Source: Sulfurivirga sp. (lineage in GTDB: Bacteria; Pseudomonadota; Gammaproteobacteria; Thiomicrospirales; Thiomicrospiraceae). From it: a stretch of DNA of 40,059 nucleotides. The notes under the pieces were generated by a model that did no database searches, was not told the origin of the DNA, and worked only from the letters and a program-made list of their open reading frames with translations. Each line of letters opens with the position of its first letter. The stretch's first letter is position 1. Where the stretch lies: positions 1 through 40,059 of the forward strand of contig NZ_WFYD01000101.1 of NCBI RefSeq assembly GCF_015490265.1, in the 5' to 3' direction. The translations under genes were made by a program, and so were the position numbers. This document shows positions 4,407-31,043 of the stretch, piece by piece.

Positions 4407-5772
4407 TGGCCTTCGCCTTGATGATGGGTTTGAGCAGATAGTGCAGTACCGTCTGCCGACCTGTAATGATGTCCACGGTGGCAGTCATGCCCGGCAGCAG
4501 GGGCAGGGGATGTTCCTTTGAGCCCAGGTAGCTGCGGTTGGTGCGGATGCGCACCAGGTAGAAGCTGTGCCCCTCGTCGTCGGTGATGGTGTCGGCGCTG
4601 ATGTTGTCCACCACGCCTTCGAGGCTGCCATAGATGGAGAAGTCATAGGCGGAGAACTTGACCCTTGCCTTCTGGCCTACGCGCAGGAAACCCACATCCT
4701 TGGGCGAGATGCGCGCCTCAACGATGAGTGCGTCGTCTTCGGGCACGATCTCCACCACCGGATCACCCGGCTTGATGACGCCGCCGACGGTGGTGACCAG
4801 CACCCGCTTGACGATGCCGCGTACGGGGCTGCGCAGCTCGGTGCGCTGCACCCGATCCCTGAGGGCCGCCTGGGTCTGCTCCAGCGCCGCCAGTTTGGCC
4901 AGCGCTTCGGTGAGCTTTTCATGGGCCTCGTTGCGGAAGGCCTGCTCCTTGGCCTTGAGCTTTTCCTTCGCCTCGGCCACTTCCGCCTGCAGGCGCGGAA
5001 TGTCGTTCTTGAGGCTTTCTATCTTGGCGCGCATCTGGCTGGCCTCGCGGCGCAGCTTGAGCAGGTCCACCTCCGAGGCGTAGCCACGGCGCACCAGCGG
5101 CTCGTTGATGCGCAGCTCCTTCTGGATGAGGCGGTAGCTGGCCTGCAGTTCCCGCAGCTGGTCACGGGCGTCCTTCAGTTCCAGCTCTTTCTGGCGGATC
5201 TGCGACTGGAGGATCTGTTTTTCCGTCTCCAGCTGTTCCTTGTGCTTGCGATAGAGGGTGATCTCATTGCGGTAGATGGCTTCCAGCGCAGGGTCGTTCT
5301 TCGGAATGGTCAGTTCGAGCGGTTTGCCGCTGGCTTCCGCCTCCAGACGGGCGATCTGGGCGCGCAGGGCCTCCTGCTTGACCCGGTTTTCACCGAAGGT
5401 GCTGGCGAACTGGGTGGCGTCCAGCCGCAGCAGCACCTGGCCCTTCTCCACCGTGTCGCCCGCCTTGACCAGAATCTCGCGCACGATGCCGCCCTCCAGG
5501 CTCTGCACGACCTGCAGCTTGGAGGAGGGGATCACCTTGCCCTCGCCGCGCACCAGCACGTCCAGTTCAGCCCAGTTGGCCCACAGCAGGAAGGTGGTCA
5601 CCAGCCCGAACAGAAGCCATACCAGCAGGTGACTGCGCTCGGTGGGCTTCTCCAGCGTAGCGCGCGCAAGACTGTCCATGAAGTCCAGATCTTCCGGTCG
5701 GGGTGTCGGCATGCCGGCTTCGGGCGTCTGTCCATTCTGCTGGCGCGTGTCCTTCTCTTTCGGCGTGTTCAT
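4387..5772 (-). CDS. HlyD-family type I secretion periplasmic adaptor (LapC-like)
   Basis: Starts MNTPKEKDTRQQ at 5772 (the listed ORF runs further upstream inside the ABC gene); one TM, long coiled coil, HlyD C-terminus GMTATVDIITGRQTVLHYLLKPI; ATGA overlap with the upstream gene. Confidence 0.9.
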   Translation of the reverse strand: MNTPKEKDTRQQNGQTPEAGMPTPRPEDLDFMDSLARATLEKPTERSHLLVWLLFGLVTTFLLWANWAELDVLVRGEGKVIPSSKLQVVQSLEGGIVREILVKAGDTVEKGQVLLRLDATQFASTFGENRVKQEALRAQIARLEAEASGKPLELTIPKNDPALEAIYRNEITLYRKHKEQLETEKQILQSQIRQKELELKDARDQLRELQASYRLIQKELRINEPLVRRGYASEVDLLKLRREASQMRAKIESLKNDIPRLQAEVAEAKEKLKAKEQAFRNEAHEKLTEALAKLAALEQTQAALRDRVQRTELRSPVRGIVKRVLVTTVGGVIKPGDPVVEIVPEDDALIVEARISPKDVGFLRVGQKARVKFSAYDFSIYGSLEGVVDNISADTITDDEGHSFYLVRIRTNRSYLGSKEHPLPLLPGMTATVDIITGRQTVLHYLLKPIIKAKANALREG

Positions 5773-7946
5773 GCGTCCTTGCTCCGGCTCTGGGCTTTGA
5801 GCGTTTCCAGCACGATCTCCTTGGCGCCGTCGGCCACCACGCGGCCGCCATCCATGACGATCAGGCGGTCCACCAGCGTCAGCAGCGACATCTTGTGGGT
5901 GACCACGATGGTGGTGCGTCCCTTGAGACGGGGCTTGAGCCGCTGCAGGAAGGCCTGTTCGGTGCGGGCGTCCATGGCGTTGGTGGGCTCGTCCAGCAGG
6001 TAGATGGGCGTGTCCAGCAGCAGGGCGCGCGCCACGGCAATGCTCTGTTTCTGCCCGCCGGACAGGGAGGCGCCGCCCTCGCTGATGTCCAGCGCATAGC
6101 CGGACGGGTGCTGACGGATGAAGTCGTCCACGCCGGCGATGCGCGCGGCTTCCAGCACATGCGCGTCCTCGATGTAGGGCGCGCGGCAGGTGATGTTGTC
6201 CCACACGCTGCCTTTGAACAGCTGGATGTCCTGCGGCACGTAGCTGATGTGGCGGCGCAGCGCGGCCGGGTCGATCTGCTGGAGGTCGATGTCGTCGATG
6301 CGGATCATGCCGTCATCCGGTGGGTAGAGGCCGAGGATGAGTTTCTCGATGGTGCTCTTGCCCGAGCCGATGCGGCCGATGATGCCCACATGCTCACCCG
6401 GCTCGATGACGAAGCTCACCTCACGCAGCGCCGGCTTGCTGTCGCCGGGATAGGTGAAGCTGACCCGCTCGAATTCGATCTTGCCCTTGACGGTGGCCGG
6501 CTGGATGAAGCGTTTGCCCTTGGGGCGCTCCACCGGTTTCCGCATCAGATCGTTGAGCTGATCCAGCGCGGTGCGGGTCTGCAGGTAGCTGGTGACCAGG
6601 TTGGCGAACTGCCCCATGGGGGCGATGGCTCGCTGGCTGAGCATGACGCTGGCGATGAGCGCGCCCATGGACATCTGGTTGTCCTTGATCAGATAGACGC
6701 CTGCCAGCACCACCAGTACGGTGGTGATCTGCTGCATCAGGCCGGTGAAGCGACCGATGTTGCTCTGCATCAGCCGGGCGCGCAGGCTGGTCTGGGCGAT
6801 CTGCCCCACCGCCTGTTCCCATTTCCACTGGCTGTGGGCTTCAAGCCCCAGCGCCTTGATGGTCTCGAGCGAATTGAGCGCTTCGATCAGCACGGCATTT
6901 TTCTGGGCCGAGGCTTCATAGGTGGCCTCCACCGCCCGCTGGATGGGGCGGCGTATCAGCAGGCTGTAGAGCAGAATGACGAGAATGACGATCAGCGGAA
7001 TCAGTGCGATTGGCCCGCCGATGATGAAGATGACGGTGAGAAACAGCGCCACGAAGGGCAGGTCCACCAGCGTGGCGATGGTGCCGGAGGTGAAGAAGCC
7101 GCGGATGGTGTCGAATTCGCGCAGGTGGTTGGCGAACACGCCCACACGGTCCGGACGGGCCGCCATGGTCAGCCCCAGCGTCTGCTCGAACAGCCGCGCG
7201 GACATGATCACGTCTGCCTTCTTGCCGGCCACCTCAAGGAAATAGTTGCGCAGGTATTTCAGCCCGTAGTCGAACAGGTACATGACCGTGACCCCGATGG
7301 CCAGCGTCCACAGGGACTCGACCGCATTGTTGGGCACGATGCGGTCGTAGACATTCATGATGAACAGCGGGTTGGCCAGCACGAACAGGTTAATGACGAT
7401 ACTGGCGACGATCACGTCCCGGTAGATGCGGCGGTTGCGCCACAGGGTGCTCCAGAACCAGTGGCCTTCGCCGGTGACCAGCTCCGGCTTGTGGGTGGCG
7501 CCGGCCACCTGCTCGGTGAACAGGATGACGTAGCCGGCATAGTCCCTTTCCAGCTCGTCCAGTGGCAGATGACGGCGTCCTTCCGGCAGTTCGGGCAGGA
7601 TGACCTCCGCCTCGCCTGCATCATGGTCAATGGCGGTCAGCACCAGCGCATCACCGTTGTTCATCACCAGAATGGCCGGCAGCAGGCGCGGGTTGAGTTC
7701 TCGCAGCGTGCGGCGGCGCACCGCGGCGTGCAGACCAGCCCGGTCGGCGGCGCGCACCAGCAGGTCCGGCGTCAGCGGTTTGTCGTCCAGCGGCAGTCCG
7801 GCAGTAAGCGCCTCCGCCGTCATGGGGCGGCGGTAGAGGCGGGTGATGACCACCAGCGCTCCCAGCAGCGGGTCATGCCGGGCCTGCAGGTCCGCCAGCG
7901 GGTCACCGGTGGGGCTTGGGGCGGCGTCAGCGTTCATGTCGTGCAA
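5769..7946 (-). CDS. Type I secretion permease/ATPase (LapB-like) with C39-like N-terminal domain
   Basis: Walker A GRIGSGKST, signature LSGGQKQSIAVARALL, Walker B IYLLDEPTNAMD, six-TM ABC domain; N-terminal peptidase-like domain without a catalytic Cys. Confidence 0.92.
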   Translation of the reverse strand: MHDMNADAAPSPTGDPLADLQARHDPLLGALVVITRLYRRPMTAEALTAGLPLDDKPLTPDLLVRAADRAGLHAAVRRRTLRELNPRLLPAILVMNNGDALVLTAIDHDAGEAEVILPELPEGRRHLPLDELERDYAGYVILFTEQVAGATHKPELVTGEGHWFWSTLWRNRRIYRDVIVASIVINLFVLANPLFIMNVYDRIVPNNAVESLWTLAIGVTVMYLFDYGLKYLRNYFLEVAGKKADVIMSARLFEQTLGLTMAARPDRVGVFANHLREFDTIRGFFTSGTIATLVDLPFVALFLTVIFIIGGPIALIPLIVILVILLYSLLIRRPIQRAVEATYEASAQKNAVLIEALNSLETIKALGLEAHSQWKWEQAVGQIAQTSLRARLMQSNIGRFTGLMQQITTVLVVLAGVYLIKDNQMSMGALIASVMLSQRAIAPMGQFANLVTSYLQTRTALDQLNDLMRKPVERPKGKRFIQPATVKGKIEFERVSFTYPGDSKPALREVSFVIEPGEHVGIIGRIGSGKSTIEKLILGLYPPDDGMIRIDDIDLQQIDPAALRRHISYVPQDIQLFKGSVWDNITCRAPYIEDAHVLEAARIAGVDDFIRQHPSGYALDISEGGASLSGGQKQSIAVARALLLDTPIYLLDEPTNAMDARTEQAFLQRLKPRLKGRTTIVVTHKMSLLTLVDRLIVMDGGRVVADGAKEIVLETLKAQSRSKDA

Positions 7947-21508: not shown

Positions 21509-22754
21509 CGTCCTGCTGCGCCATGAGCGCCTGATGCTGCTGTCGGTCGGCCTGCTGGCCGTGCTGCTGGCACTGGTCGCCGGGACGGAAGCGGCCCTGC
21601 TGATTCTGGCAGCCTATCTTGCCTTTCATCTGATCCAGCTGGCCCGATTCCTCTCCGGCAAGTCTGTGCTGCTCGTGGGTTTCTGGCCCTGGCTGCAGCG
21701 GAGCTGGAAACAGACGCAGTGGCGGCGTGAGCGGCGCATGCGGCGGCTTGCCCGGCAGCTGGCGCGGGATGAGGCGGTGCTGGACGCCCTGCCGGTGGGG
21801 CTGGTGCAGCTGGACGGCGAGGGCGACATTCAGCGCTTCAACCGGACGGCAGGGGAGATTCTCGGTCTGCGCCGGCAGGACTGCGGCACACCCATCCGCC
21901 ACTTGCTGCGTCTGCCAGAGTTCGTGCGCTGGCTGGCCGGTGGTGAGGACATCCTGCGGCTGGTGATGCCTGAAGCGCGCCTGCGGGTGCTGGCGCTGGA
22001 AAAGCGTCCGCTGGATCACGGTCTGCTCCTGCTGGTGCGGGATATTACCACTGAGGCGGATGTGGCCCGCCTGCGGCGGGACTTCGTGGCCAATGCTTCC
22101 CACGAACTGCGCACGCCAGTCACCGTCTTTCGTGGCTATCTGGAAACGTTGCTGGCGCTGGAGGAGCCGGCCCTGCAACCGGTGCGTCCGGCCCTCGAGC
22201 AGATGGCGCAACAGGCCGAGCGCATGCATGCCATCATCGAGGATCTGCTCACCCTCTCCTCGCTGGAACAGGGCATGGGACGCGATCAGCGTGAGCGGGT
22301 GGACATGACGGCCCTGATGGAGACGCTGTGTCAGGAGGCGGTGCAGCTGAGCGCCAACCAGCATGTGCTTGTTTTCGAGTGCGAGACGGAGCATGATCTG
22401 CGGGGCAACCGCTCGGTGCTGCATTCAATCTTTTCCAACCTCATCAGCAACGCGGTGCGCTACACGCCGGAGGGCGGGCGCATTGAGGTGCGCTGGCGCC
22501 TCAATGAGGCCGGAGAGGGGGTTTTTGAAGTATCAGACACGGGCATTGGCATTCCGCGCGAGCACATTCCCCGGCTGACGGAGCGTTTCTACCGGGTGGA
22601 CACGGCCCGCTCGCGGGAGAGTGGCGGCACCGGGCTGGGACTGGCCATCGTGCGCCACGGGCTGGAAATGCACCGCGGACGACTGGAGGTGGACAGCACC
22701 CCGCAGGTGGGGTCCACCTTCCGTGCCATTTTTCCGGCTAAGGCTGTCACATAA
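21492..22754 (+). CDS. phoR: Phosphate sensor histidine kinase PhoR
   Basis: H-box FVANASHELRTPVTVFRGYLE, N-box NLISNAVRYTPEGG, G-boxes DTGIGIP and GGTGLGLAIV; candidate TTG start 21492 (or ATG 21534). Confidence 0.9.
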   Translation: MHVSISVLLRHERLMLLSVGLLAVLLALVAGTEAALLILAAYLAFHLIQLARFLSGKSVLLVGFWPWLQRSWKQTQWRRERRMRRLARQLARDEAVLDALPVGLVQLDGEGDIQRFNRTAGEILGLRRQDCGTPIRHLLRLPEFVRWLAGGEDILRLVMPEARLRVLALEKRPLDHGLLLLVRDITTEADVARLRRDFVANASHELRTPVTVFRGYLETLLALEEPALQPVRPALEQMAQQAERMHAIIEDLLTLSSLEQGMGRDQRERVDMTALMETLCQEAVQLSANQHVLVFECETEHDLRGNRSVLHSIFSNLISNAVRYTPEGGRIEVRWRLNEAGEGVFEVSDTGIGIPREHIPRLTERFYRVDTARSRESGGTGLGLAIVRHGLEMHRGRLEVDSTPQVGSTFRAIFPAKAVT

Positions 22755-22783
22755 GTTTCATATTTGTGTCATGGCACTGTTAA
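22744..22783 (+). promoter_or_regulatory. Extended Pho box upstream of pstS
   Basis: Units at 11-bp period: CTGTCACataa GTTTCATattt GTGTCATggca CTGTTAA; -10-like CACAAT about 10 bp downstream. Confidence 0.85.
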
Positions 22784-23989: not shown

Positions 23990-25087
23990 ATGGAAAAGAT
24001 CTTTGCCCGTCTGAGCTGGTTGAGCGCCACGACGCTGCTGCTGGTGCTGCTGGCCACCCTGTATGTGCTCTACATTCAGGCGAAGCCGGCCATGAATGAG
24101 TTCGGCTGGCAGTTCGTGCTGGATCCGCGCTGGGGCGTGGATGTGATTGTGGATGAAACCGGCAACGAGGTCCATGGCAGCCATGACGAGGCCTCGGACG
24201 TGGACAGCGGGGGGGTGGTGCGTCTTGACATGGGGGATGACGAAGACGCCATTCCCATGGAGGACGAGACGGCCACTGGCCAGCCGGAACTGGCAGAGGG
24301 CGATCTGGACGGTGAGGCGATCGACGAAGAGATCCCCATGGAAGACGAAACGGCCACCGGGCAGGATGAACTGGCGGGTGAGGCGAAGACTTCCAACATC
24401 AGGGTGGTCTATGGCGGGCTGGTGCCGATCGTGGGCACGGTGCTGTCCACGCTGATCGCCATGGCATTCGCGGTGCCGCTGGCCATGGGCATCGCGGTGT
24501 TTCTGTCGGAGATTTCCATCGACGGGCTCAAGACGCCGGTGGGCGTGGCCATCGAGTTGCTGGCGGCCATTCCCTCCATCATTTATGGCATGTGGGGCCT
24601 GTTCTTCTTCGGGCCGCTGGTGGCGCACGTCTTCGGTGGCAGCAGTGTGTCCCTGCTGGTGGCGGGGCTGGTGCTGGGCGTGATGGTCATCCCCTTCATG
24701 GCGGCGCTGAGTCGCGATGCCATCAACACCACGCCCAATGTACTCAAGGAGTCCGCCTACGCGGTGGGCGCCACCCGTTTCGAGGTGGTCAAGGACATCA
24801 TTTTTCCCTATGCGCGCACCGGCATTCTGGGGTCCATCATCATTTCGCTGGGCCGGGCACTGGGTGAGACCATGGCGGTGGCCTTCGTCATCGGCGGCGT
24901 CTACAAGCTGGCCGAGCACATCACCGACCCGACCATCTCCATTCCGGTGGCGCTGGCCAACAACTTCGCCGAGTCCAGCGGCCTGAGCCTGGCTTCGCTC
25001 TACTATCTGGCCTTCATCCTGTTCGTGGTGAGTTTCGTGATCATCTTCACCGCCAAGGAGTTCCTGCTGCGAAGGAGCAAGTACTGA
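23990..25087 (+). CDS. pstC: Phosphate ABC transporter permease PstC with acidic loop insertion
   Basis: YGGLVPIVGTVLSTLIAMAFAVPLAMGIAVFLSEI, AIPSIIYGMWGLFFFGPLV, ESAYAVGATRFEVVKDIIFPYA; residues ~52-137 are an acidic insert. Confidence 0.93.
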   Translation: MEKIFARLSWLSATTLLLVLLATLYVLYIQAKPAMNEFGWQFVLDPRWGVDVIVDETGNEVHGSHDEASDVDSGGVVRLDMGDDEDAIPMEDETATGQPELAEGDLDGEAIDEEIPMEDETATGQDELAGEAKTSNIRVVYGGLVPIVGTVLSTLIAMAFAVPLAMGIAVFLSEISIDGLKTPVGVAIELLAAIPSIIYGMWGLFFFGPLVAHVFGGSSVSLLVAGLVLGVMVIPFMAALSRDAINTTPNVLKESAYAVGATRFEVVKDIIFPYARTGILGSIIISLGRALGETMAVAFVIGGVYKLAEHITDPTISIPVALANNFAESSGLSLASLYYLAFILFVVSFVIIFTAKEFLLRRSKY

Positions 25088-25914
25088 TGAACCTGTCCCA
25101 GCGTCGTCTGCTGATCAACCGGCTCTTTTCCATCGTGTCGGCGGGCACGGCCATCGTGGGGCTGATCTTTCTCGGCTGGATCATCGTCACGCTGGTGATG
25201 AAGGGCACTGAAGCCCTGTCGTTCAGGGTGTTCACCACCGACCTGGTCAATGGGGGCCTGCGCAACCTGATCTGGGGGCAGTTCGTGCTCTCCATGCTTG
25301 CCGCGGCCATCGCCGTGCCGCTGGGCATGCTGGCGGGCATCTGGCTGCAGGAGTATGGCAATCACACCCGTTATGCCCATTTCATCCGTGACTTGTCGGA
25401 TGTGATGATGTCGGCGCCCTCCATCGTCATCGGCACCTTCGTCTATGCCATTCTCGTGGTGCCGGTGCAGCACACCAATGGCTGGGCGGGCATCGTGGCG
25501 CTGGCTATCCTGATGCTGCCGATCGTGGTGCGCACCACCGACGACATGCTGGGGCTGATTCCCCGTGAGCTGCGTGAGGCGGGCGTGGCGCTGGGGATTC
25601 CAAAGTACCGCATCATCCTGGACATCATCATCCGTGCCGCCAAGGTGGGCATCATGACCGGTCTGCTGCTGGCCTTTGCCCGCATCGTGGGTGAGACGGC
25701 GCCGCTGCTCTACACCAGCGGCACCAGCGAGTTCTGGCCAGAGGGCCTGACGCAGACCTATCCGTCCCTGACGGTGTCCATCTACAATCTGGCCACCATG
25801 CCGGATGCGGAGATGGTCAAGCTGGCGTGGACCGGTGCGCTGCTGCTGGCCGTCTTCGTGCTGACGCTCAATATCGTCGGCCGCTACGTGGTTCGTGACA
25901 GAAGGAAGAAATGA
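25087..25914 (+). CDS. pstA: Phosphate ABC transporter permease PstA
   Basis: 275 aa; [64 protein letters not shown]. Confidence 0.95.
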
Positions 25915-26717
25915 TGCAAGAGGCCCAAGCCAATCTGTGCCCGATGATGGAGGCGGTGGACTTTTCGTTCACCTACCCGGGCGCCAGCAAACCCTCCCTC
26001 AAGGGGATCAACCTGCCGGTGCTGGAAAACCGCATCACCGCGCTGATCGGTCCATCCGGCTGCGGCAAGTCCACCTTGCTGCGCTCCATGAACCGCATTC
26101 ATGACCTATACCCGGGCTGCCGCTACGAAGGGGCGATCAATCTGCGCTGCGAAAATGGCGAGGTGAAGAACATTCTCGAATGGAAGAAGGAGAATGACCT
26201 GATCCGTCTGCGTCAGAAGGTGGGCATGATCTTCCAGAAGCCCACGCCGTTTCCCATGTCCATCTACGACAACATCGCCTACGGACTGAAGCTGCAGGGC
26301 ATCCGCAACCGCTCAGAGCTGGACGAGCGGGTGGAGCAGGCGCTCAGGGACGGCGCGCTGTGGAACGAGGTCAAGGACAGGCTCAAAGATGACGCCCGCG
26401 GATTGTCTGGCGGACAGCAGCAGCGCCTGTGCATCGCCCGTTCGGTGGCGCTGCGCCCGGACGTGCTGCTGTTTGACGAGCCCACCTCGGCGCTGGACCC
26501 CATCTCCACCGTGGCCATCGAGGAGATGATCATGGAGCTGCGCAACCGCTACACCATCTGCATCGTCACCCACAACATGCAGCAGGCGGCGCGCATCTCC
26601 GATTACACTGCTTTCATGTACATGGGCGAGCTGGTGGAATATGGTGAAACGGACACCATCTTCACCAACCCGCGCGAAAAGCAGACCGAGGACTACATCA
26701 CCGGTCGCTTCGGCTGA
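25911..26717 (+). CDS. pstB: Phosphate ABC transporter ATP-binding protein PstB
   Basis: [77 protein letters not shown]. Confidence 0.97.
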
Positions 26718-26743: not shown

Positions 26744-26766
26744 AACCCCGCCCCGTGCGGGGTTTT
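26744..26766 (+). terminator. Rho-independent terminator after pstB
   Basis: AACCCCGCCCCGTGCGGGGTTTTT. Confidence 0.8.
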
Positions 26767-26801
26767 TGCTATCATCGAGCTGCAAGGAGGAGAAGGGTTC
26801 C

Positions 26802-27497
26802 GTGAATACGCGCATGCCTCCGGTCGATCCGGGCTTCTTCGATCAACCGCCCCTGAGGCTGGCGGTGGCGCTGCTGGGCAAGCTGGTATGTCGCAGGGTG
26901 GAAGATGTATGGCTGGCCTGCCGCATTATCGAGACGGAGGCCTACTATATTGACGAGAAGGGCTCCCACTCATCACTGGGGCGCACCCCCAGCCGCGAGG
27001 CCATGTTCATGCCGGCCGGCACCATCTACATGTACTACAGCCGTGGCAAGCCGTCGCTCAATGTGAGCGCCCGGGGCGAGGGCAATGCGGTGCTGATCAA
27101 GTCGGGCGTGGCCGAGACCCGCCAGCCGGAGGCGCTGGCGCTGATGCGCGCGGGGTTGGGACGGGACAAGCCGGAGGAGACCCTCTGCTCCGGCCAGACG
27201 CTGCTGTGTCAGGCGCTGCATCTGGCGGTGGAGGACTGGCGCGGGCGTCAGTTCGACCCGGAGGTGTTCTATATCGGGGATGACGGCTACCGGCCTGAAC
27301 AGGTGGTGCAGACTGCGCGGCTGGGCATCGCGCCTCAGCGGGATGCGCATCTGCCCTACCGGTTCGTGGATGCGGCCTTTGCCCGGCGGGCCACGCAGAA
27401 CCCCATGAAACGCACGGCGGTGGCGGGGCGGGACTATCGCATCATGCCGCTGGAGACGGCGCTGAAACTGAAGGAGGAGCATGGTCATGGGCATTGA
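26802..27497 (+). CDS. DNA-3-methyladenine glycosylase, AAG/MPG family
   Basis: RIIETEAYYIDEKGSHSSLGRTPSREAMFMPAGTIYMYYSRGKPSLNVSA; start GTG 26802 or ATG 26814. Confidence 0.88.
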   Translation: MNTRMPPVDPGFFDQPPLRLAVALLGKLVCRRVEDVWLACRIIETEAYYIDEKGSHSSLGRTPSREAMFMPAGTIYMYYSRGKPSLNVSARGEGNAVLIKSGVAETRQPEALALMRAGLGRDKPEETLCSGQTLLCQALHLAVEDWRGRQFDPEVFYIGDDGYRPEQVVQTARLGIAPQRDAHLPYRFVDAAFARRATQNPMKRTAVAGRDYRIMPLETALKLKEEHGHGH

Positions 27498-27585
27498 GCA
27501 TGGCATCAGCTGGTGGTGGTGGCTGCTGGCGTGGATGGGCGTGGCGCTGGCGGTATGGGGCCTGTATCGTCTGCTGACCCGCTGA
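27487..27585 (+). CDS. Small Trp-rich putative membrane protein, MGIEHGISWWWWLLAWMGVALAVWGLYRLLTR
   Basis: Strong SD AAGGAGG (27471-27477) 9 nt before ATG 27487; one hydrophobic helix plus basic C-terminus; absent from the ORF track (size cut-off). Confidence 0.6.
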   Translation: MGIEHGISWWWWLLAWMGVALAVWGLYRLLTR

Positions 27586-27699: not shown

Positions 27700-28608
27700 G
27701 TGAAGACGACGGGACTTCTGGCCATGGCGGGCCTGCTGGTGATGCTGGCAGGCTGCGGCGATCAGCGGCAGGCAGCGCCGAAGGTGGCCTATGCCGACCG
27801 CCCACCCGTGCAGGAAAGGGTCTATGTCTTTGCCATCCACCCCCTCTACAGCCCGGGGCGGCTGTTCGAGAAGTTCACGCCCATCATCGACTACCTCAAC
27901 CAGCAGTTTGACGGCTTCAGCCTGCGGCTGGAGGCCTCCCGGGACTATCCCGCCTACGACCGCAAGATCCGCAGTCAGCGTCCCGACTTTCTGCTGCCCA
28001 ACCCGTTTCAGACGCTGATCGGGCAGCGCCATGGCTACCGCGTCATCGGCAAGGTGGATGACGACCGGGATTTCCGCGGCATCATTCTGGTGCGCAGAGA
28101 GGATGGTATCCGCAGGGTGAAAGACCTGAAGGGTGGCACGGTGGCCGCACCTGGGCCAACGGCGCTGGCGGCCACCATGATGCCCAAGTATTTTCTCCAT
28201 ACCCACGGCATCGACGTGCGCCGGGACGTGAAATATCTCTATACCGGCACGCAGGAGTCCACCATCATGGCGCTTGCGCTGGGCAATGCCCGGGCGGCCA
28301 CCACCTGGCCCATTCCCTGGCGCCTGTTCCAGCAGGCGCGGCCCGAAATCGCCCGTCGGCTGAAGGTGGCCTGGCGTACGGAAAGTTTGCCCTCCAACAG
28401 TGTCATGGTCCATGATCGGGTGCCGCAAGAGGTGGCGAGACAGGTGATGGATGCGCTGGTGGCCATGAAGCAGACGGCGGAAGGCCGCCGCCTGTTGCAG
28501 GAAAGCACTTTCACCGGCTTCGTAAGGGCGGATGATGCTGCCTACGCGCCGGTGCGCGCCTTCATCGAGAACTACAGCCGCACGGTGGAACCGGTGAGGA
28601 TCGAATGA
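27700..28608 (+). CDS. PhnD-like phosphate/phosphonate-type substrate-binding lipoprotein
   Basis: GTG start; lipobox LVMLAGC; YSPGRLFEKFTPIIDYLNQQF...DFLLPNPFQTLIG...GGTVAAPGPTALAATMMPKYFL. Confidence 0.82.
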   Translation: MKTTGLLAMAGLLVMLAGCGDQRQAAPKVAYADRPPVQERVYVFAIHPLYSPGRLFEKFTPIIDYLNQQFDGFSLRLEASRDYPAYDRKIRSQRPDFLLPNPFQTLIGQRHGYRVIGKVDDDRDFRGIILVRREDGIRRVKDLKGGTVAAPGPTALAATMMPKYFLHTHGIDVRRDVKYLYTGTQESTIMALALGNARAATTWPIPWRLFQQARPEIARRLKVAWRTESLPSNSVMVHDRVPQEVARQVMDALVAMKQTAEGRRLLQESTFTGFVRADDAAYAPVRAFIENYSRTVEPVRIE

Positions 28609-31043
28609 TGAAGCTCCCCGCCCTTTTCCGTGGACCGATCAGGCGCCAGCTCATCCTGGGCGTGGCACTGGTGCATGCGTTGCTGATGACCTTTTTCGTG
28701 TGGGATCTGGTCAACAAGCACGAGCAGGCGGTCTATGATCAGGCGCGGCAGCAGATCCGACATCTTGGCGAGACGCTGTCCGACACCCTGGCCCTGTGGC
28801 TGGCGGCCCATGATGTGCAGGCCATCCAGGATGCGCTGGATGCCCAGAAACGCCGGGTGCCCAATCTGACCGAGGCGCTGGTGTTCGACATGGACGGACG
28901 GGTTATCGCCCACACCGAGCGCAGGCATGTGGGGCAATATGTGGTCGATCCGCTGTCGCTGAAACTGCTCAGGGCGCCACCTCGCTATCAGCTCCTCTAT
29001 GAAGATGCGCGTCTGCTGGACGCTGCCGCACCGGTCACGCTGCGCGGGCAGCAGCTGGGCTGGGTGCGCGTGCGCATGGATGTGAGTGCCCTGCATGGCG
29101 AAATTCTTTCCATTATCGTCGAAGGTGTGCTCTACACCCTGTTCGCCATTCTGGCGGGCAGCCTGCTGGCGTGGTGGCTGGGCCAGCGCCTGACCCGGCG
29201 GCTCTATCAGCTGCAGGATGTGGCGCGGCAGGTGACCGCCGGCGCGCGTGACGTGCGTTTTCCCACGGGCAGCGGCTACCGTGACGAAGTGGAGGCGCTG
29301 GGCGAATACTTCAACGCCATGCTGGACCAGCTGCGTGCCAATGAGCTGGCACTGACCGGTGAACACGACCGCATTCAGAAGGTGCTGCGTCTGGTGCCGG
29401 TGGGCATTGTGCTGTTCGACCGTGAGGGGCGGCTGGTCTATGCCAATCCGGCATTCGAGCGCATGGCCGGCATGGCGCATCTACAGCCCGGAGAGCCGTT
29501 CGCCACCGTGTTCGGACGGGTGCACATCGGTGACCGTCGGTTGTTCGGCTTTGGCGAGCTGCTCCAGCATGCCGGCCAGCGGCTGGAAGACGTGCGCTTT
29601 CAGCCCAATGAGGAGATGTCCATTCTGGCCTCGCTGGAAGTGGTGCCCTATGGCCATGATAACGACGACGGCCTGTTGCTGATCATTGAGCCGGAAGGGG
29701 AGTCGGAGGCGCTGCTGCGACGGCTGCTGTGGGATCAGCTGCATGATCCTGTCACCGGGTTGCCCAATCGCACCGCCCTGTTACGGCATCTTGAGGAGTG
29801 CTATGAGTCCGGCGAGGCGGAGCATGGCTGCCTCTGGGCGATGAATGTGGATCACTTCCGTCAGGTCAACGAAGTCTTCGGTCTGAGCGGTGGCGATGAG
29901 ATGCTCGCACGCATTGCAGAACGGCTGACTCGTCTGACGCGGGATCTGGGGCAGCTCTACCATTTGGGCGGAGACGGTTTCGCCCTGCTGCTGCCCCGCG
30001 GCATGGCGGATCCGGTCGGTGCTGCCGAACGGCTCATCCACCGGTTCGAGCAGAGCGTCTTCATGCTGCACGGGCAGAAGTTCGCCCTGGGATTGACGCT
30101 GGTGCAGTTTGAACTGCGTCAGTTCGACTACCCGGAGGCATTGCTGCTGGCCATGGATGCCGGCATGCGCACGGCCAAGCAGAGCAGCCGTGGCCGGGCG
30201 GTGCGCTACACCACCGCCGAGGATGTGCAGGCGCGCAAGCTGGATGAGGTACGCTGGCTGGGCGAGATCAAGAATGCGCTGCAACAGCGCAGTCTACAGC
30301 TGGTGGGGCAGCCGCTGGTGCCACTGGACGGACGCAGCGAGCGGCGGCTGGAGATTCTGGTGCGTCTGCCCGGTGAAGACGGCAGGCCTGTGCCGCCGGG
30401 CGTCTTTCTGCCCATCGCCGAGCGCTACGGCCTGATGCATGCGCTGGACATGACCGTGCTGGATCTGGCCGTGGACTGGCTGCGCGCCCATGAGGCGCAG
30501 GTGGACCGCATCAACCTCAATCTTTCCGGGCAGACATTGGCCAGCGAGCTCAACCGACAGGACCTCATCGAGCGTCTCAGCGCCCAGCCCCGCAGTGTGC
30601 GCGAGGCGCTGTGCATCGAAGTGACCGAGACCGTAGCGGTGGGTGACATGCGCGAGACCGCCCGGCTGCTGCAGCAGATCCGCTCGCTGGGCTGCCGGGT
30701 GGCCATTGACGACTTCGGCTCCGGCTATGCTTCGTTCAATTACCTCAAGGGGCTGTCGGTGGACGAGGTGAAGATCGACGGCGCCTTCGTGCGCGAGATG
30801 ATGACCAGCGAGGTGGACGCCGCCATGGTGGCCGCCGTGGTGGAGATCGCCCACAAGATGGAGCTGGGCGTGGTGGCCGAGTTCGTGGAGACGGCCGAGA
30901 TGGCCCGTCGGCTGCAGAAGCTGGGTGTGGAATACGCGCAGGGTTATTACTTCTCCGCGCCGCAGCCGCTGGAAACGCTGGATGAGACCTTCTGGCAGAA
31001 GGTATTTGCCCTGCGGGTGGAGGCGGCGGATCAGTCCGCCTGA
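28605..31043 (+). CDS. Membrane sensor with HAMP, PAS-like, GGDEF (degenerate) and EAL domains; putative c-di-GMP phosphodiesterase
   Basis: Two TM flanking a periplasmic domain; LGGDGF at the GGDEF site; EILVRL, IEVTET, AIDDFGSGYASFNYLKGLSVDEVKIDGAFV, AEFVET, QGYYFS. Confidence 0.9.
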   Translation: MMKLPALFRGPIRRQLILGVALVHALLMTFFVWDLVNKHEQAVYDQARQQIRHLGETLSDTLALWLAAHDVQAIQDALDAQKRRVPNLTEALVFDMDGRVIAHTERRHVGQYVVDPLSLKLLRAPPRYQLLYEDARLLDAAAPVTLRGQQLGWVRVRMDVSALHGEILSIIVEGVLYTLFAILAGSLLAWWLGQRLTRRLYQLQDVARQVTAGARDVRFPTGSGYRDEVEALGEYFNAMLDQLRANELALTGEHDRIQKVLRLVPVGIVLFDREGRLVYANPAFERMAGMAHLQPGEPFATVFGRVHIGDRRLFGFGELLQHAGQRLEDVRFQPNEEMSILASLEVVPYGHDNDDGLLLIIEPEGESEALLRRLLWDQLHDPVTGLPNRTALLRHLEECYESGEAEHGCLWAMNVDHFRQVNEVFGLSGGDEMLARIAERLTRLTRDLGQLYHLGGDGFALLLPRGMADPVGAAERLIHRFEQSVFMLHGQKFALGLTLVQFELRQFDYPEALLLAMDAGMRTAKQSSRGRAVRYTTAEDVQARKLDEVRWLGEIKNALQQRSLQLVGQPLVPLDGRSERRLEILVRLPGEDGRPVPPGVFLPIAERYGLMHALDMTVLDLAVDWLRAHEAQVDRINLNLSGQTLASELNRQDLIERLSAQPRSVREALCIEVTETVAVGDMRETARLLQQIRSLGCRVAIDDFGSGYASFNYLKGLSVDEVKIDGAFVREMMTSEVDAAMVAAVVEIAHKMELGVVAEFVETAEMARRLQKLGVEYAQGYYFSAPQPLETLDETFWQKVFALRVEAADQSA

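Follow-up and report, generated by a model that had tools for sequence, protein, structure and literature searches.

KdpF, CydX, AcrZ and MgtS are single-span helices of about 30-50 amino acids which bind to a larger membrane protein and are often encoded within an operon or at its end, and most characterised single-span microproteins of this build act by binding larger membrane proteins. A further group of small inner-membrane peptides of 27-29 amino acids is associated with DNA damage and includes DinQ and TisB of E. coli and SidA of Caulobacter. DinQ, for example, is a single-span peptide of 27 amino acids which is under SOS control (PMC3567139).

The microprotein described here is predicted from a stretch of 40,059 nucleotides of Sulfurivirga sp. 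DNA, which was analysed as a whole and is referred to as the window. It is similar to DinQ, TisB and SidA in its length, its predicted single inner-membrane span and its association with DNA damage, which in the case of the microprotein is only positional, and no similarity at the sequence level is claimed. While these peptides are encoded by separate genes controlled by SOS/LexA, the microprotein ORF overlaps the gene of a 3-methyladenine DNA glycosylase (mpg) and is not accompanied by a LexA-type box. Several of the KdpF-like proteins adjoin the genes of their partners, whereas the microprotein adjoins the gene of a soluble DNA glycosylase, and for this reason its own partner is not evident.

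The microprotein ORF and its start site

The locus lies on the forward strand of the window and is composed of the following features:

25911-26717, + strand: pstB, the end of pstSCAB and upstream neighbour of mpg; synteny conserved in all four Sulfurivirga species
26750-26767, + strand: intrinsic-terminator-like hairpin in the gap between pstB and mpg, GCCCCGTGCGGGGT with a T run
26802-27497, + strand: mpg (aag), 3-methyladenine DNA glycosylase, GTG start at 26802; PF02245 E 1.4e-38, NF002005 equivalog above cutoff
27471-27477, + strand: Shine-Dalgarno (SD) sequence AAGGAGG, within the last mpg codons
27487-27585, + strand: ORF of the putative membrane microprotein, 32 aa, start ATG at 27487, stop TGA at 27583-27585
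27700-28608, + strand: phosphonate-binding-like periplasmic lipoprotein, downstream neighbour; PF12974 E 3.4e-53, and synteny
28605-31043, + strand: sCache/HAMP/PAS/GGDEF/EAL membrane protein, downstream; from domain search, with synteny where the contig reaches

The 32 codons of the ORF translate into MGIEHGISWWWWLLAWMGVALAVWGLYRLLTR, exactly as had been stated in an earlier account made from the letters of the DNA (the sequence-only reading). The same account had placed an AAGGAGG motif 9 nt ahead of the ATG, which is exact (27471-27477, with AGCATGGTC as the spacer), and had reported an overlap with the end of the glycosylase gene, which amounts to 11 nt between the 5' end of the ORF and the 3' end of mpg (stop TGA at 27495-27497). 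Its description of the SD as strong holds for the window, but this strength is not conserved in the other three species, where the corresponding stretch contains GAGGAG, GGAG and GGAG. A further in-frame ATG at 27481 would yield a product of 34 aa; it is located very near to the SD and is absent from the other species. ATG 27487 is preferred as the start since its position is conserved, whereas ATG 27481 is not common to the relatives.

Chance statistics for short ORFs preceded by an SD were calculated within the window, both strands of which contain 720 start-to-stop ORFs of 25-50 codons. A strong and suitably spaced SD precedes 15 of these, and the microprotein ORF, which is counted twice on account of its two ATGs, is alone in combining a strong SD with a hydrophobic segment. 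The WWWW cluster that had been singled out in the sequence-only reading is likewise present; it occurs once when all six frames of the window are translated and is encoded by a run of TGG triplets. The run of four itself is not conserved, as W10, the second tryptophan of the run, is replaced by alanine or glycine in two relatives (WAWW and WGWW); WWWW is thus a TGG repeat in this genome and the conserved motif is WxWW.

Orthologues and distribution

Each of the four Sulfurivirga genomes that were searched has the ORF at this place. They are the window's own (1.72 Mb in 141 contigs, with the microprotein as a single copy), the genome of S. caldicuralii strain DSM 17737, and two MAGs; the same-genus loci include those of strain DSM 17737 and of a MAG labelled S. 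caldicuralii. The orthologues of the three relatives show 94, 75 and 63% identity (E 1e-16 to 7e-9), and that of S. caldicuralii extends further at the C-terminus, to 46 aa in total. In all four species the start of the ORF overlaps or abuts the stop of mpg, so that the contact between the two genes described for the window is kept in its relatives. The GTG start of mpg at 26802 is matched by an ATG in genome G001.

The genus retains a common succession of genes, namely the pst genes, mpg, the microprotein, the phosphonate-binding-like lipoprotein and the Cache/HAMP/PAS/GGDEF/EAL protein; in G001 it is seen up to the binding-protein gene, in which the contig ends. A gap of 114 nt, which is AT-rich, separates the microprotein ORF from the lipoprotein gene in the window. 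In S. caldicuralii an extra small, secreted-type charged ORF separates pstB from mpg, and the microprotein ORF is separated from the next gene by an opposite-strand ORF recognised by eye as hemerythrin-like (two inserted genes, L028 about 4970-5310 / 6278-6763). Genes are therefore inserted on both sides in this species and only the contact between mpg and the microprotein ORF is undisturbed. A hairpin equivalent to that after pstB is found in G001 and S. caldicuralii and is missing from G003. With this terminator-like element in three of the four species, including that of the window, mpg and the microprotein ORF probably form a transcription unit of their own in these three; no promoter was identified for the pair.

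Beyond the genus, a profile built from the four sequences was run against the remaining 59 genomes of the order and against 399 genomes sampled from the whole phylum, and nothing was matched convincingly. Two phylum-level matches (E 2.8e-4 and 6.8e-4) correspond to single helices within long permease-type proteins and were rejected as chance similarity between membrane helices. A pattern scan of one genome per species in 84,980 species returned Sulfurivirga loci only, with patterns so strict that remote relatives could escape them. In Pfam the best match (E 0.038, 13.2 bits) is below the curated cutoff of 26, no match was found in NCBIfam, PHROGs or the PDB, none in viral contigs, and a literature search found no paper on the gene. 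Judging from these searches, the microprotein appears to be restricted to Sulfurivirga as far as the searches extended. A search at E 0.001 through 32 further genomes of the family found no mpg gene, and 19 other mpg homologues, of 57% identity or less, are not followed by a small hydrophobic ORF. The pair is hence a feature of the genus Sulfurivirga, and an origin of the microprotein there and its loss elsewhere both fit this distribution.

The C-terminal half of the microprotein is similar to that of OadG-like proteins of 50-70 aa from the Thiomicrospiraceae (ALAVWGLYRLL in the microprotein, ALAMWGVYRFF in the latter), which were recovered as weak profile matches (E 0.01-0.1). The OadG-like genes are located next to a SPOR-domain gene and thus at a different locus, and this family has a match of its own elsewhere in the Sulfurivirga genomes; the microprotein was therefore rejected as an OadG-like orthologue, and the resemblance probably reflects convergent composition of membrane helices. 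The OadG-like protein is in its own right a single-span protein of 55-70 aa conserved across Thiomicrospiraceae genera (L034, L037, L040, L042, L044, L045, L048 and L052, near position 1500), and in four loci examined its gene has as neighbours a SPOR-type gene and a MATE-type or YchJ-like one (identified by eye).

Evidence that the ORF is coding

A frame broken in close relatives had been named in advance as a finding that would speak against a gene. None of the four Sulfurivirga species has a broken frame, and the ORF is under purifying selection, with pairwise dN/dS values of 0.06-0.30 outside the mpg overlap. The selection tests left out the four codons at the 5' end, where the ORF overlaps mpg or adjoins it, and in two pairs with G003, in view of the saturation of synonymous sites, dN/dS was taken from uncorrected proportions. 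The differences at codon positions 1, 2 and 3 number 1, 1 and 6 between G000 and G001 and 8, 3 and 14 between G002 and G003, two comparisons which lie on separate branches of the tree. When substitutions were placed at random, the absence of a stop together with as few amino-acid changes was obtained in 0.03-0.85% of trials (P 0.0003-0.009), with 0.85% (P 0.0085) for G000-G001 and 0.13% (P 0.0013) for G002-G003, on a comparative basis of four genomes and about 30 codons. Antisense frames are open in some species and none is open in all four. The selection is seen at the level of the peptide, as expected of a small single-span membrane protein. Together with the intact orthologues and the kept overlap or abutment with mpg, it supports the original interpretation of the ORF as a real small membrane protein, and on these comparative grounds it is very probably a real protein-coding gene.

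Anatomy and predicted topology

The residues which are invariant in the four species include G6, I7, W9, W11, W12, A15, W16, A20, L21, W24, Y27, R28, L29 and L30, and the core reads GI-x-W-x-WW-xx-A-W-xxx-AL-xx-W-xx-YRLL. AlphaFold2 predicts a helix from residue 9 to 31 with a mean pLDDT of 83.7. With 32 codons, below a limit of about 50, and one predicted hydrophobic helix, the microprotein would belong with the small single-span membrane proteins, which are a structural kind and not a homologous family. The N-terminus is short, neutral to acidic and devoid of basic residues, while the C-terminus is basic (YRLL-R), and by the positive-inside rule this would suggest an N-out/C-in topology. W9, W12, W16, W24 and Y27 point to a similar side of the helix and, with A20, form a suggestive stripe (W9-W12-W16-A20-W24-Y27). 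One-sided clustering of the conserved residues was not significant in a permutation test (P 0.13-0.46), and an interaction face is thus not demonstrated.

Possible functions

The explanation that is favoured, with somewhat better than even confidence, is that of a real, Sulfurivirga-restricted gene whose product is a single-span inner-membrane microprotein which is translated with mpg and most likely binds to a larger membrane partner. It is proposed that ribosomes which terminate on mpg would reinitiate at the ATG that overlaps or adjoins its stop, aided by the SD inside mpg, and that the product would insert as a bitopic inner-membrane protein of one helix, with the tryptophan cluster at the membrane interface where the helix begins and the basic C-terminus in the cytoplasm. 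By analogy with other microproteins of this build, it would most likely bind laterally to a larger membrane protein and tune the stability or activity of this partner.

That the ORF arose by chance in GC-rich DNA, its conservation being due to short divergence or a constraint at the RNA level, is considered very unlikely. The ORF is very short, open frames are numerous in GC-rich sequence and the antisense is also open in some species; against this, 63% of the amino acids remain identical while synonymous sites approach saturation (pS 0.74-0.79 against G003), the differences are biased towards third positions, random placement of substitutions rarely reproduces the pattern, and immediately beyond the stop the two distant species can hardly be aligned. 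A small membrane toxin such as those of type I toxin-antitoxin systems would be hydrophobic, tryptophan-rich and of this size, but the single copy, its fixed locus and its overlap with the gene of a DNA glycosylase, an Rfam search of the window without a match to an antitoxin or antisense RNA family, and the absence from viral contigs render this extremely unlikely.

Two further explanations take the neighbouring genes as their starting point. A membrane peptide made with the glycosylase could, like SidA, DinQ and TisB, slow division or alter membrane-dependent steps during the repair of alkylation or heat damage, a role which would account for the strict pairing despite insertions on both sides, for the co-occurrence of the microprotein with an mpg that was not found in the 32 other family genomes, and for a size and build resembling DinQ. 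This is nevertheless judged unlikely: the search for CTGT-N8-ACAG with at most one mismatch, from 20517 to the window end, found no LexA-type box of the SOS-controlled peptides near mpg, although the LexA site of Sulfurivirga itself may differ, no antisense RNA family was matched, and the overlap with mpg implies expression along with an enzyme of housekeeping type, whereas the SOS peptides are under separate control. Also unlikely, and slightly more doubtful, is an accessory of the phosphate system or of the downstream pair, in which the microprotein would act as a small regulator on PstCAB or on the Cache-HAMP-GGDEF-EAL protein. The neighbourhood from pstSCAB to the GGDEF/EAL gene is kept in the genus and Pho-box-like tandem repeats are located ahead of pstS, but pst genes are widespread without the microprotein, three of the four species have the terminator-like hairpin after pstB, and in S. 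caldicuralii unrelated genes separate the pair from both neighbours. The case which the neighbourhood makes for a phosphate or c-di-GMP role is weakened by these insertions around the pair.

The microprotein represents a clean case of a gene which falls under the size limits of annotation and is supported by comparative data, and the type strain S. caldicuralii DSM 17737 is held in a culture collection. The strict pairing with a repair gene of no obvious membrane role raises the question of why a membrane peptide should be encoded on one transcript with a repair enzyme. One speculative answer, held to be distinctly improbable, is that in a thermophilic, sulfur-oxidising bacterium a genus-specific microprotein co-translated with an alkylation-repair glycosylase might connect base-excision repair with the membrane or with cell division, independently of the SOS circuit.

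Observations on the neighbouring genes

Three CTGTCAT-like half sites spaced by 11 nt are located just before pstS (22744-22783) and resemble a tandem Pho-box array. The pstC-like gene (23990-25087) encodes a predicted permease with an acidic insert that contains an imperfect internal repeat, IPMEDETATGQPELAEGDLDGEAIDEEIPMEDETATGQDELAGE. Downstream of the microprotein ORF, the phosphonate-binding-like lipoprotein gene overlaps the Cache/HAMP/PAS/GGDEF/EAL gene (27700-31043). In the latter GGDGF stands in place of the GGDEF motif and EIL in place of EAL, and from these motifs one or both of the enzymatic domains may be inactive. The two proteins could constitute a c-di-GMP sensor fed by a binding protein.
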